A program made the position numbers and the translations under genes. Shown one piece after another: positions 6,906 through 12,285 of a DNA stretch of 64,000 nt. This stretch comes from an uncultured Bacteroidales bacterium. Its GTDB lineage: Bacteria > Bacteroidota > Bacteroidia > Bacteroidales > F082. The stretch spans positions 1-64,000 of the forward strand of contig ONFO01000009.1 in assembly GCA_900317155.1 (NCBI GenBank), read 5' to 3'. Below the pieces are notes generated by a model. That model was not told the origin of the DNA and searched no databases. It saw nothing but the letters and a program-made list of their open reading frames with translations. Position 1 is the first letter of the stretch, and the number at the start of each line of letters is the position of its first letter.

Positions 6906-7826
6906 TTGATAATAAATAACCTAAAAACCGGCTCCAAAATAGCCATCGCAGCCCCAGCGCGAATGGTGACACGAGAAGAAATTGCCTTCGGTATTCAGTG
7001 GTTGAAAGACATGGGTTTTGTTCCAGTTTACGACGACAGACTCTTCAACCAATATTATATATTCTCTGGTGATGATGACACACGTGCGGCTGTGTTTCAA
7101 AAATATCTTGATAATGAGGATATTGATGCAATTTGGATAGCGAGAGGCGGATATGGTAGTATCCGTATCATTGACAAGTTGGACTTCACCCATTTTTTAC
7201 AACATCCGAAATGGATTATTGGCTTCAGTGATGGTACGGTGTTGCATGGCAAACTGAGCCGTTTGGGCGTTCCCAGTCTTCATGCTGCCATGCCTTTCTA
7301 TTTTGCCAACAAAACTCCAGAAGCCAAACAGTCTTTATTTGACGCTTTGACTGGCAAGTCTTTGCATTATGAAATTGCTTCAAATCCATTGAACCGCTTG
7401 GGAAAAATGGAAGGTAAAATTGTGGGTGGAAATCTGTCGGTTCTGTATGGCATGATAGAATCCGATACTTTTCCCGAATTGGATGGAAAAATCTTGTTCA
7501 TCGAAGAAGTAGATGAATATATCTACCACATTGACAGGATGATGCACGGACTAAAACGTGCTGGAAAGCTTGAACATTTGAAAGGACTCATCGTTGGCGG
7601 CTTGACGCAAATCCACGATAATAGTCATCCCTTTGGACAAACCGCCGAGGAAGTTATTGCTGAGGCTGTTTCTGAATATGAATATCCCGTTTGTTTTGGT
7701 TTCCCTGCCGGACATTTTGATGACAATCGACCTTTATTTTTCGGACTGAAGTCAAGAGTGGAAGTTTCTTCCGAAAAATCAGCTTTCCTTTGCAATCCGA
7801 TTCATCTCGTTCAAGATGTGCTTTAG
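6906..7826 (+). CDS. ldcA: LD-carboxypeptidase, peptidase family S66
   Basis: 306 residues. Family S66 enzymes remove the terminal D-Ala from murein tetrapeptides during cell-wall recycling. Visible marks: N-terminal KIAIAAPARMVT, the glycine-rich ARGGYGSIRI, the nucleophile serine in IIGFSDGT, the catalytic Glu in FIEEVDEYIYHIDRM and the His in FPAGHFDDNRPLFFG. The only start that keeps the first strand is a TTG at 6906; the first ATG (6963) would remove the conserved beginning. Its last 48 bases overlap the end of the CARF nuclease gene on the other strand. Confidence 0.9.
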   Translation: MIINNLKTGSKIAIAAPARMVTREEIAFGIQWLKDMGFVPVYDDRLFNQYYIFSGDDDTRAAVFQKYLDNEDIDAIWIARGGYGSIRIIDKLDFTHFLQHPKWIIGFSDGTVLHGKLSRLGVPSLHAAMPFYFANKTPEAKQSLFDALTGKSLHYEIASNPLNRLGKMEGKIVGGNLSVLYGMIESDTFPELDGKILFIEEVDEYIYHIDRMMHGLKRAGKLEHLKGLIVGGLTQIHDNSHPFGQTAEEVIAEAVSEYEYPVCFGFPAGHFDDNRPLFFGLKSRVEVSSEKSAFLCNPIHLVQDVL

Positions 7827-8939
7827 ATTCTCAGGCTTGGTCAAATTAAGCCAATCGCAGAAGGTGATGCCCATGTATTTGGCGGTCTTTTTCCAGTTGC
7901 CTTTGTGGTCTTTCTTGAGCGAGAAAATGTAGGAATTACCGCTGCCGAGAAGCACTTCCTTCAGAGCGCAGACCTTATAGACGATTTCATTAAAAAGGCT
8001 TTCGCTGGTCACACCCGTCTTGCACTCGATGACAAACAATTTGTTGGCCTTCATGAAGCACACATCCAACTCATTGTTGTGCTTGATGACGCCGTTGGAG
8101 ATATGCACGCCCATAGCGATGTCGTCGGGTTGCAGCACATTCTTAATCAGCGCGTAGACATATTCCTCAAACCAACCGCCCGTAAGGTATTCTATTTCAA
8201 AGTTTTGCAAAGAACCTGGTCTTTCTGGAACGAAACCAATGAAATCCAAGAACTTGCTGAGGTTAGGTATGGCGGTCATATATTCTTTATCAGGTTTTTC
8301 GACCTGCGAGATGATGAGGAACTTCCAGTTGCGATATTTCTCGCGTAAGGTACTCATCACTTCATAGTCACCACGACTGAACATATTTTGAGAAAACATA
8401 GTGAACAAATGCTGCGAGAAAGCGGTTTCTTTCACCTGTTTGCGCGGTTGGTCCACATCGCTTTGCAGTCCATAAAGGCCAAAATATTCCTTCAACGTCA
8501 TCCGATGCTTGACGGGGAACACCTCATCATCATCGTCGTAGATGCTGTGGTCAAAGATGGTCTTGACAATGAGATTTTCACGGGTTTGCGTGTAGAAAAA
8601 CAAGGTGTTGAATTCCTCGAAGACATGCTGCACCGACAAGGTCATGTAACGATTGCCGCCTGCCAAGTTAAGGTAATACTGCTTGTTGGGAATCAGATTA
8701 CCTTTGATGGTGCGGCAAATGCGTTCATACAAGAACTTGTCCTGATACCGTTTGACGATGATGGTTTTCACAAGCGTTTCATCAATATCCAACGCTTTTA
8801 TTAACAAAGGAATGCAATTGATTTCTTCCTCGGCGGAGATAAACAGCAGTTCGTCGCCGTCTTCGTAATATTCCTTGGTAAACAGATATGCCGGCAACGG
8901 ATTGCTTTTGTCTATAATATTTACGATGGTTTTGGACAT
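7779..8939 (-). CDS. Card1/Can2-like protein: CARF domain + PD-(D/E)XK nuclease (DUF1887)
   Basis: 386 residues. The N-terminal half looks like a CARF ligand-sensing domain: the segment NLAGGNRYMTLSV (91-103) matches the CARF glycine loop N.TGG.K.M. The C-terminal half is a restriction-type nuclease: GGWFEEY (254-260), then ELDV (290-293), then ECK (305-307), giving the E...D...ExK set of a PD-(D/E)XK site. In characterised relatives cyclic tetra-adenylate from type III CRISPR complexes binds the CARF part and switches on nucleic-acid cleavage. No CRISPR array, cas gene or cyclase lies in this window. It follows the DUF2442 gene by 12 bases and overlaps the 3' end of ldcA. The fold call is good; the activating ligand is inferred. 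Confidence 0.8.
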   Translation of the reverse strand: MSKTIVNIIDKSNPLPAYLFTKEYYEDGDELLFISAEEEINCIPLLIKALDIDETLVKTIIVKRYQDKFLYERICRTIKGNLIPNKQYYLNLAGGNRYMTLSVQHVFEEFNTLFFYTQTRENLIVKTIFDHSIYDDDDEVFPVKHRMTLKEYFGLYGLQSDVDQPRKQVKETAFSQHLFTMFSQNMFSRGDYEVMSTLREKYRNWKFLIISQVEKPDKEYMTAIPNLSKFLDFIGFVPERPGSLQNFEIEYLTGGWFEEYVYALIKNVLQPDDIAMGVHISNGVIKHNNELDVCFMKANKLFVIECKTGVTSESLFNEIVYKVCALKEVLLGSGNSYIFSLKKDHKGNWKKTAKYMGITFCDWLNLTKPENLKHILNEMNRIAKES

Positions 8940-8951
8940 GGTTTAGTATTA

Positions 8952-9203
8952 TCAGTTAAGTGGCACACCATATTCATATATAGTGTCGCTGGGTATGTCA
9001 ATTCGTTCGTTCCAATAAATACAGGTTCGACTGCTATCCAATTGTGCCATAGGCCATAAACCAATCTTAGTAGTCAAACTTTTGAAATCTTCAATGGTAT
9101 CAATGTCATCCTTCACATCGTAACAAACACGAAAGCCATCATCGAAAGTCACCATCAACTTCCAATCATCGTTTAGTTCAAATTGTTTGATTCTTGGTAT
9201 CAT
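8952..9203 (-). CDS. DUF2442 domain protein
   Basis: 83 residues that match the DUF2442 pattern: a hydrophobic strand and turn LMVTFDDGFRVCYDVKDDI, a middle helix, then IYWNERIDIPSDTIYEYG. Members are small, often found as partners of DUF4160 proteins in putative toxin-antitoxin pairs; no DUF4160 gene is here. It is the first gene of a two-gene operon with the CARF nuclease, 12 bases apart. A -7 box TACTTTTG (9247-9240, minus strand) lies about 37 bases before its start. Its function is unknown. Confidence 0.75.
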   Translation of the reverse strand: MIPRIKQFELNDDWKLMVTFDDGFRVCYDVKDDIDTIEDFKSLTTKIGLWPMAQLDSSRTCIYWNERIDIPSDTIYEYGVPLN

Positions 9204-9266
9204 AATGTATTTCGGGCATAGTTTAGTTGTTTATTTGTGCAAAAGTAACAAAAAGTAATGTAATAC

Positions 9267-10736
9267 CTATTTGATTAGTAATTTTTTAACCGACTTATCC
9301 GAAGTATTCCTTACTTCAACGAAATAAGCCCCGCTTCCCAAAGATTCAACATTAATAACATTAGTCTGATTATCAATTTTTTGTGATTTCACAATCTGTC
9401 CATTGACATTGTAAATCACCAATTCGGAAGGTATGGCGTTTTCAAGCGTAAGAGTGAAACTACCATAAGAAACGGGATTCGGCCACACTTCAAAATCAGT
9501 AGTGTTAGACTCACTTACATTATCGTCTTCAAGGAAAGGAATGTAATTGACCAATCCCAAATTTGGGTCGTCGTTCTTATGGGTGATATGGTCTTCAATC
9601 TCTTGCTCATCAATTGTACCCCAGTAGTTGCCGACGGCCGTGATGTCGTAGGTGGAGTTGTTGTACAGGTCAAAAATACCATAACTTGCTCCATAATTAT
9701 AGACATGGCCGTTACCGTGGATTACGTTGTGCCCCCAATCGTCTTCAGTGCCAAGGTCGACATTAGCGGCATTGATGACGGTGATGCCCCAATGGTTGTT
9801 TGTTATGACATTATTTCGGATATAAGCCTTGTTATTCTCGTCCATGCCATAAATGCTGATACCGCTGCCGCCGTTCATCGGGTTGGTTTCGAGTTTGTTT
9901 TGGTCAAACGTATTTCCAATGATGGTTGAACTGAGATGATAGCCTTGTTGGTTGTAGCCATAGCGATTGTAATAAATGTTGTTGTTTTTCAACAGGATTT
10001 TGGTGTCGCCAATTCCCATCAAGTCGGCAATACTGATGCCACCTGCCATATAATCTCCGTCGTTAATGGTACAGTTCACGATACGGATGCTATCTTGAGA
10101 ACCGGGTCCAAGATTGATATGAGGGTTATTACTCACATTTAAAAAGAATATACAGTCGGTAATTTGAGGAGAGGTTTGCCCATTGGCTGGAGAACTGATG
10201 GCCGAACCATTATTATTGTCAAATTCGCAATTCGTGAACACGGGGTCGCAGTTCATGCAATTGACAACAGCACTTTGTTGTTCACAACGGAAAGTATGGA
10301 AATGGCAGTCCGTAAAAACAGCCTCGCTTTCAATAATTTGTATGCCGTCCAATTGTGTAATGTTGCATCTTCTAAACACGCACGGGCCGGTGGCATCCTC
10401 TAAACGGATACGACCATTCACACCTGAATTGCCAGAGAAAGCCAACCAGTAATAATCATCCGTATTGATGGCGTCTATCGAGCCTTTGATGGTCAGGGTG
10501 ACATTGTTGCCAAAGTACAAGGAATGGTTGACATCAAGTTTGTCGTTGGCCGAAATGGTGACGTCGTTTTCGATTCTATACTGTTGGTTGCTTTCATTCC
10601 ACACGACGCAGCCTTCGCTCACTTCTATAAGGTCGTCAATGTTGTAGGTGGTGCCGTTGCCGGGGCTTGTCCATTGGGCGTTCAGCATAGGAATGAATCC
10701 GAGAAACAAGGCTAAAATCAAGGTTACTTTTTTCAT
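9267..10736 (-). CDS. T9SS-sorted right-handed beta-helix protein
   Basis: 489 residues. The signal peptide MKKVTLILALFLGFIPMLNA is followed by a parallel beta-helix region (about 60-390) with repeated asparagine-ladder units such as IRNNVITNNHWGITVINAANV and CEFDNNNGSAI, as in pectate-lyase-like and polymorphic outer-membrane proteins. The end (about 415-489) is a type IX sorting domain, VWPNPVSYGSF ... LVIYNVNGQIV ... SVKKLLIK. Probably a surface adhesin or glycan-binding protein; no catalytic motif was seen. The -7 box TAATTTTG is at 10770-10763. It stands alone. Confidence 0.83.
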   Translation of the reverse strand: MKKVTLILALFLGFIPMLNAQWTSPGNGTTYNIDDLIEVSEGCVVWNESNQQYRIENDVTISANDKLDVNHSLYFGNNVTLTIKGSIDAINTDDYYWLAFSGNSGVNGRIRLEDATGPCVFRRCNITQLDGIQIIESEAVFTDCHFHTFRCEQQSAVVNCMNCDPVFTNCEFDNNNGSAISSPANGQTSPQITDCIFFLNVSNNPHINLGPGSQDSIRIVNCTINDGDYMAGGISIADLMGIGDTKILLKNNNIYYNRYGYNQQGYHLSSTIIGNTFDQNKLETNPMNGGSGISIYGMDENNKAYIRNNVITNNHWGITVINAANVDLGTEDDWGHNVIHGNGHVYNYGASYGIFDLYNNSTYDITAVGNYWGTIDEQEIEDHITHKNDDPNLGLVNYIPFLEDDNVSESNTTDFEVWPNPVSYGSFTLTLENAIPSELVIYNVNGQIVKSQKIDNQTNVINVESLGSGAYFVEVRNTSDKSVKKLLIK

Positions 10737-11034: not shown

Positions 11035-12285
11035 TCACTTCCTAATCGCCGCAATGCCAGGCAATTCCTTGCCTTCGATGGCTTCGAGCAAAGCACCGCC
11101 GCCAGTGCTGACATAGGAAACTTGGTCGGCGAGGCCGAACTTGTTGATGCAGGCCACTGAGTCGCCGCCGCCGATGAGCGAGAAAGCGCCGTCCTTGGTG
11201 GCTGCCGCAATGGCCTCGGCGATGGCCTTTGAACCCACGGCGAAGGTGTCGAACTCAAACACGCCGCAGGGACCGTTCCAAAGGATGGTCTTCGAGCCTT
11301 TGATGACGTTGGCGAAGAGTTCGCGGGTCTTCGGGCCGATGTCCATGCCTTCCCAGCCTTCGGGAATGTTCATCGGGTCAACGACTTGTGTGTCGGCATC
11401 GTTGGCGAACTTGTTGCCCACTACGCAATCTTCGGCAAGCACAAGCTTGACGCCCTTTTCCTTAGCTTTGGCAAGGATGTCGAGAGCGAGGTCGAGCTTG
11501 TCGTCTTCGCAGATGGAGTTGCCAATCTTGCCACCGAGGGCCTTCTTGAAGGTGTAGGTCATGCCACCGCAGAGGATGAGATTGTCAACCTTAGTGAGCA
11601 GATTCTCAATGATTTCGATCTTCGTGGAGACTTTCGAGCCACCCATGATGGCGGTGAAAGGATGCTGGATTTCGTTCATCACCTTGTTCACAGCAGCCAC
11701 TTCCTTGCCCATCAGGTAACCGAACATCTTGTGGTCGGCATCGAAGTAGTCGGCAATGAGAGCGGTTGAAGCATGGGCACGGTGTGCGGTGCCGAAAGCG
11801 TCGTTGATGTAGTATTCACCATAACCGGCAAGGGTCTTGGTGAATTCCTTCTGCGAGGCTTTCACGGCCTTCTTGGCTTCGTCGTAGCCTTCTTCACCCT
11901 TTTCGATGCCACGCGGTTTGCCTTCCTCTTCGGCATAGAAACGAAGATTTTCGAGAACCAGCACTTCACCAGGTTTCAGAGCGGCTACTTGGTCGGCGGC
12001 TTTCATGCAGTCGGTGACAAATTGCACGGGACGACCCAGCAATTCTTCCAAGTGCTTGATAATCGGCTTGATGGAGTATTTCGGGTCGGGGTTTTTCTTC
12101 GGGCGACCGAGGTGCGACATCAGCACAACCATGCCTTTGTCGTTCAAGACCTTATTAATGGTAGGAAGAGCGGCACGCATACGGGTGTCGTCGGTGATGT
12201 TGAAGTTGTCGTCCAACGGTACATTGAAATCAACGCGGATAACCACGCGCTTGTTTTCGAATTTTACTTGATCGATGTTTGTCAT
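11035..12285 (-). CDS. pgk: Phosphoglycerate kinase
   Basis: 416 residues, usual length. It transfers phosphate between 1,3-bisphosphoglycerate and ADP in glycolysis. Marks: [13 protein letters not shown] and the basic-patch SHLGRPK at the N-terminus, [12 protein letters not shown], the hinge region, PCGVFEFD and the C-terminal nucleotide loop [14 protein letters not shown] followed by [19 protein letters not shown]. It follows the diacylglycerol-kinase-like gene by 26 bases in the same direction and probably shares its promoter. A palindromic repeat cluster lies against its 3' end. Confidence 0.97.

Follow-up and report, generated by a model that had tools for sequence, protein, structure and literature searches.

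The closest described relatives of the nuclease reported here are Card1 (PDB 6wxw/6xl1), Can2 of Sulfobacillus (PDB 7bdv) and VC1899 (PDB 1xmx), the orphan founder of DUF1887. PMC7969007 names Ser19, Thr42, Lys99 and Tyr118 as cA4-binding residues of Can2 and reports that the orphan VC1899 is not activated by cA4. PMC4012209 notes that certain CARF genes in the VC1899 family have no CRISPR link, and PMC12669027 describes CARF homologues as abundant outside CRISPR. A CARF sensor that, as here, is not CRISPR-linked occurs in RtcR, where it is reported to bind tRNA halves ending in a 2',3'-cyclic phosphate (PMC7790460); this divergent CARF domain is fused to an AAA+ activator and not to a nuclease, and RtcR is a precedent for another ligand only. 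Orphan CARF nucleases have been noted since VC1899; here we describe a bounded clade with many natural sequences and fixed pocket changes. A literature search on stand-alone CARF nucleases, from which the 2020 CARF classification (Makarova 2020) was missing, gave no description of this clade.

The window, the whole stretch of 64,000 nt that was analysed, comes from a 3.8-Mb MAG of 65 contigs (96.8% complete, 3.0% contaminated). Its minus strand carries a gene for a stand-alone CARF-PD-(D/E)XK nuclease of the Card1/Can2/DUF1887 family (7779..8939, 386 aa). A gap of 12 nt separates this frame from a gene on the same strand for an 83-aa probable DUF2442 protein (8952..9203; DhiA-type antitoxin), and comparison with related loci identifies the four codons at 9208..9219 (minus strand) as the remnant start of a deleted DUF4160 toxin gene. 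Further upstream on the minus strand lie the genes for a Por secretion tail protein (9267..10736) and for phosphoglycerate kinase, pgk (11035..12285; Pfam PGK, 503 bits). An LD-carboxypeptidase (Peptidase_S66) gene on the plus strand (6906..7826) is convergent with the nuclease gene and overlaps it by 48 nt.

The sequence-only reading had described a 386-residue CARF nuclease with the glycine loop NLAGGNRYM and a PD-(D/E)XK active site. The open reading frame, the loop (residues 91-99, 8643-8669, including Arg97 at the position of Can2 Lys99) and the catalytic set were all found as described, and the profile search it had proposed and a structure prediction agree. Both Pfam domains scored above their cut-offs, CARF_Card1 (residues 13-152, 8484..8903) with 37.8 bits (cut-off 24.6) and Card1_endonuc (residues 251-344, 7908..8189) with 61.9 bits (cut-off 26.4), while the PADLOC CARF4 profile gave 198 bits; loop and domains are encoded on the minus strand. 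In an alignment of 79 orphan sequences, with two rows dropped, the active-site residues Glu258/Glu259, Asp292, Glu305 and Lys307 are invariant (79/79). The predicted model carries a CARF fold followed by PD-(D/E)XK with a complete active site, and matches Card1 and Can2 structurally over its full length. By descent and predicted fold, the window protein is assigned to the Card1/Can2 family (DUF1887, CARF4-PDDEXK).

Card1 is 25% identical to the window nuclease and has the loop NITGGTKIM in place of NLAGGNRYM; in contrast to Card1, the window nuclease has no Csx20-like neighbour and its genome no detected type III locus. Fold and active site are the same as in Can2, and the differences lie in the ligand pocket, for which the residue contacts of Can2 given in PMC7969007 were mapped by alignment to the orphan clade. 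Can2 Ser19, Thr42 and Lys99 are replaced by Asp10, Ala36 and Arg97 in the window nuclease, whereas Tyr118 is kept as Tyr116, the sole identity among the four; the set of cA4 contacts that marks Can2 as a cA4-activated type III effector is therefore not found here. Among the 79 orphans the CARF residues Asn91, Leu92, Ala93, Gly94, Gly95, Arg97, Tyr98, Tyr116 and Asn122 are invariant (79/79). Position 10 is Asp in 66/79, Ser or Thr in 12 and Ala in 1, and position 36 is Thr, as in Can2, in 44/79, Ala in 29 and another residue in 6. Card1, Can2 and all non-orphan Bacteroidales rows aligned have Lys at position 97, and none of them has Ala at position 93; position 10 of the Lys-type Bacteroidales proteins is mostly Ser, sometimes Gly and in one case Asp (G364, L234). 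VC1899 shows Asp9, Asp34, Arg96 and Val115 at the four positions and thus has Val where the window's clade has Tyr. The window nuclease shares with VC1899 its membership of DUF1887, the absence of a type III link and the alteration of the cA4 pocket. We infer from the aligned sequences that the ligand pocket has changed yet stayed constrained. Such a change is no proof of lost cA4 binding, and cA4 or another oligoadenylate could still be the ligand, since the replacement of Lys by Arg is mild and Tyr116 is kept.

It had also been noted that no CRISPR system was in sight, and a whole-genome search for cas10 and other cyclases had been proposed. This search gave no Cas10 palm domain at E 1, no SMODS cyclase and no mCpol in the 96.8% complete MAG, and no RAMP match over the cut-off (one match of 11.5 bits, E 0.72). 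The absence of CRISPR holds for the window's contig, on which the whole-genome searches placed no Cas10, Cas1 or RAMP match, but not for the genome, which has a type II CRISPR locus on another contig (L246, G000:C24:104000-122000) with a Cas9 of 1536 aa, Cas1, Cas2 and 31 repeat copies about 78 nt apart. A type III locus elsewhere in the genome was looked for and not found, the sole Cas1 belonging to the Cas9 locus. The nuclease is hence neither linked to nor co-resident with a detected Cas10 complex. Conserved, and standing alone where no type III system was detected, it does not resemble an ordinary type III effector; this part of the first interpretation is retained, while its proposed module with DUF2442 is given up (see below). 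We consider it probable, with some reserve, that the nuclease is a domesticated type III CRISPR effector.

The chromosomal place of the gene is largely constant in the genus. At 43 of the 52 genus loci pgk is found upstream, no more than 3.5 kb away and on the strand of the nuclease gene; L031 and L040 have it at 3.8 and 4.5 kb, and several of the remaining loci are at contig ends. The nuclease start codon overlaps the pgk stop codon (TAATG, TGATG or ATGA) in 12 of 13 members of a subclade with 54-59% identity; this is not the case in the window, in whose subclade the Por-tail protein separates pgk from the nuclease gene. Among more distant orphans (42-50% identity), 12/29 overlap an upstream same-strand gene by 4 nt; the two such upstream genes tested (L173, L165) both encode CHU_C-tailed proteins, and ribonucleotide reductase is encoded by the next gene at L162 and L163. 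With this stable setting near pgk and other genes, the nuclease gene looks like a chromosomal resident and not like part of a CRISPR locus. A mobile or phage gene was rejected on the basis of no match in phages, plasmids and viral contigs, searched with a single-protein query that distant kin may escape. The nuclease gene is under strong purifying selection (median dN/dS 0.076; 49 CDS, 393 pairs, dS 0.1-1.5), and both of its parts are constrained, residues 1-155 with a median of 0.085 and the remainder with 0.071.

As a domesticated effector, the nuclease would work like Card1 and Can2 as a dimeric, ligand-gated enzyme, whose filled CARF pocket would lead to DNA nicking and/or RNA cutting and thereby to a slowed cell. 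With no Cas10 detected the signal must come from another source, and RtcR is a precedent for a CARF domain that senses a signal other than cA4. The pocket ligand would be not the Cas10 product cA4 but presumably another nucleotide or an RNA-end signal that the cell produces when infected or damaged. In one subclade the overlap with pgk points to steady expression, control being exerted by the ligand and not by transcription.

Alternatively, the protein could be active as a housekeeping enzyme or weak RNase that has lost its ligand gating, or could have only a VC1899-like residual activity. This would agree with the overlap with or closeness to housekeeping genes such as pgk, and VC1899, with Arg at the Lys99 position, is reported in PMC7969007 as a weak RNase not regulated by cA4. 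Against this stands the CARF half, which is nearly as constrained as the rest of the protein, and the nine invariant CARF residues would be needless for an idle sensor. We regard an ungated role as unlikely, although deserving some weight.

The descent of the domesticated effector was followed in a sample of 295 Bacteroidales genomes, which gave 17 matches. Only three are of the orphan type (G000, G126, G245), which indicates a narrow clade; the other 14 have Lys at position 97 (judged from the motif in G274), and ten of these lie beside Csx20-like or Csm-like genes within short flanks, while four do not (G296, G171, G364, G282). In a 52-row tree, whose 'type III' labels include these four and in which several long branches were flagged, 30 orphans form one group with support 100/100, their nearest neighbours being the type III locus proteins of G123 (96/78) and G308. 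VC1899 is a long branch beside Can2 in this tree, outside the orphan clade but unsure in its place, and was left out of a second tree. In the latter, calculated without long branches and with the type III protein of G154 added, 18 orphans are set apart by a single branch (100/99), and the three type III-linked proteins of G123, G154 and G308 join them (100/99). As judged from these protein trees, the orphan clade lies within the Bacteroidales Card1-like proteins, the majority of which are type III-linked. This supports a single departure from CRISPR, provided that the root is not on the orphan branch. A scan of species genomes, for which two peptide patterns of the query's clade served as alignment query, delivered 160 relatives; at the 80 listed loci of these 160, blastp of the flanks (8 kb at most, less where a contig ends) detected no gene best matching the type III genes of the genus.

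A fuller account, which we put forward tentatively, is that a type III effector left CRISPR once, in a common ancestor of a number of Bacteroidales lineages, was re-tuned to a new intracellular signal and is now a vertically inherited, CRISPR-independent, messenger-gated nuclease. It could show a CRISPR effector becoming part of the resident gene set of the chromosome, or reveal a new nucleotide signal. Due to the type III-linked sister protein in the same genus (G123), CARF sensing without Cas10 can be tested by pairwise comparison.

The genomes compared are mostly MAGs. A match to the window protein was obtained in 53/99 genomes of the genus, in two of which (G001, G100) only distant CARF nucleases are matched; the orthologue is thus present in 51/99 genomes and, with two copies in G133, at 52 loci. 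The copies in G133 (L091, L110) are 98% and 89% identical to the window protein, and both lie at contig ends of one bin, which is possibly mixed. The orthologue of G049 (L050/L147) is found in three matching pieces, either by decay or by assembly error, and the G054 copy is an open frame of 381 aa with a TGA beyond the frame. The further CARF nuclease of G001 (L063:9143-10351) has Lys in the glycine loop and Cys for the first Gly and groups in the tree with the Lys-type proteins, apart from the orphan clade; it has no neighbour like the type III references, and no Cas10 was found in this 89% complete genome. Among the 46 good genomes of the genus (at least 90% complete, at most 5% contaminated) the orphan type is absent from 26, and the gene is therefore dispensable. 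A pgk match was obtained in 23 of these 26 genomes, with a Por-tail gene after pgk in 11 and without it in 12 (one with only 142 nt of sequence); this empty-site pattern does not separate loss from gain.

Cas10 occurs in 3/99 genomes of the genus (G100, G025, G123), only the last of which has the orthologue, so that 50 of the 51 orphan carriers have no detected Cas10. Presence of the orphan shows no association in either direction with Cas10, Cas1 or SMODS in the genus (Fisher p 0.61, 0.30 and 0.27, respectively), and the low Cas10 count in the carriers thus corresponds to the genus background. These counts bear on the possibility that the protein is a usual cA4-gated Card1 acting in trans for type III systems, which would be acquired and lost around it. 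Such a link could exist in the outer clade, where Cas10 is present in 7/28 genomes with the orphan, and G123 contains the orphan together with a type III-A locus. This locus, however, has a separate CARF nuclease, 40% identical to the window protein (36% in an alignment), followed by a Csx20 gene, and the type III loci of G154 and G142, both of which were read, likewise have their own Lys-type CARF nuclease and Csx20-like gene. As the pocket residues also differ from those of the Lys-type proteins and Cas10 is so rare in the genus and among its orphan carriers, service in trans appears improbable. The outer Bacteroidales type III-A loci L248:6522-7976 and L249:8311-9762 encode a short Cas10 of 482-484 aa in which Csm1_B and palm2, but not an HD domain, were matched, and the Cas10 open frames in the seven outer genomes measure 481-542 aa.

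That the nuclease is the effector of a CBASS-type (SMODS) cyclase encoded elsewhere in the genome is very improbable and was rejected: SMODS is present in 6/51 orphan carriers, but also in 2/48 other genomes, with no association in the genus and no SMODS in the window's own genome. For mCpol, none of the 99 genus genomes gave a match over the cut-off and G031 gave one weak match, a weak test because the control genomes also showed none over the cut-off.

The slot before the nuclease gene was compared in the genus with gene families taken from L031 and L050 genes. The earlier statement that a DUF2442 gene lies 12 bases from the nuclease is correct in position; the family match of 19.3 bits is below the Pfam cut-off of 23.9 (16.6 bits for the G047 copy), but is supported by G047, where the gene comes immediately after an unambiguous DUF4160 gene (70 bits). 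The DUF4160/DUF2442 pair is described in PMC8198452 as the toxin-antitoxin dhiTA, and a toxin-antitoxin pair of this kind from a Thermus plasmid is reported in PMC12724237. As in DhiTA, DUF2442 is the second gene of a DUF4160-DUF2442 pair in G047 and G124, both with an intact toxin gene, whereas in the window 232 nt of the DUF4160 gene are missing and its first four codons are kept. DUF2442 adjoins the nuclease gene in 3/52 genus loci (G000, G047, G124), the contig ending too soon at two. The slot contains PIN and DUF6364 genes in G055, G022 and G120, the antitoxin gene and a PIN remnant in G018, a HicB gene in G049 and G123, and nothing in other species.

The sequence-only reading had proposed a two-gene module of DUF2442 and the nuclease. 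Such a module, whether for defence or as a toxin-antitoxin system, is hardly credible and was rejected, for although the 12-nt gap on one strand, the same neighbourhood in G047 and G124 and the excess of silent over replacement codon differences between the DUF2442 genes of the window and G047 (16 vs 7/83) speak for it, the gene-neighbour check found the pair at just these three loci, the toxin gene is deleted in the window, the slot elsewhere holds unrelated toxin-antitoxin genes or none, and dhiTA is a known pair on its own (PMC8198452). The DUF2442 gene is best read as a remnant or bystander and not as a partner of the nuclease. A bolder form of the domesticated-effector reading would have the nuclease sense RNA ends from toxin RNases or phage attack, fed or controlled by the toxin-antitoxin genes of the slot. 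Three unrelated toxin-antitoxin families occur in this one slot, which is 8952-9219 in the window and is also filled at L031, L032 and L050, all on the strand of the nuclease, at 9/52 loci (with two contigs ending too soon); a toxin-antitoxin hot spot was given little weight, the query genes having been picked from the same slot and further toxin-antitoxin genes (YoeB, HicA, HigB) being present within 10 kb.
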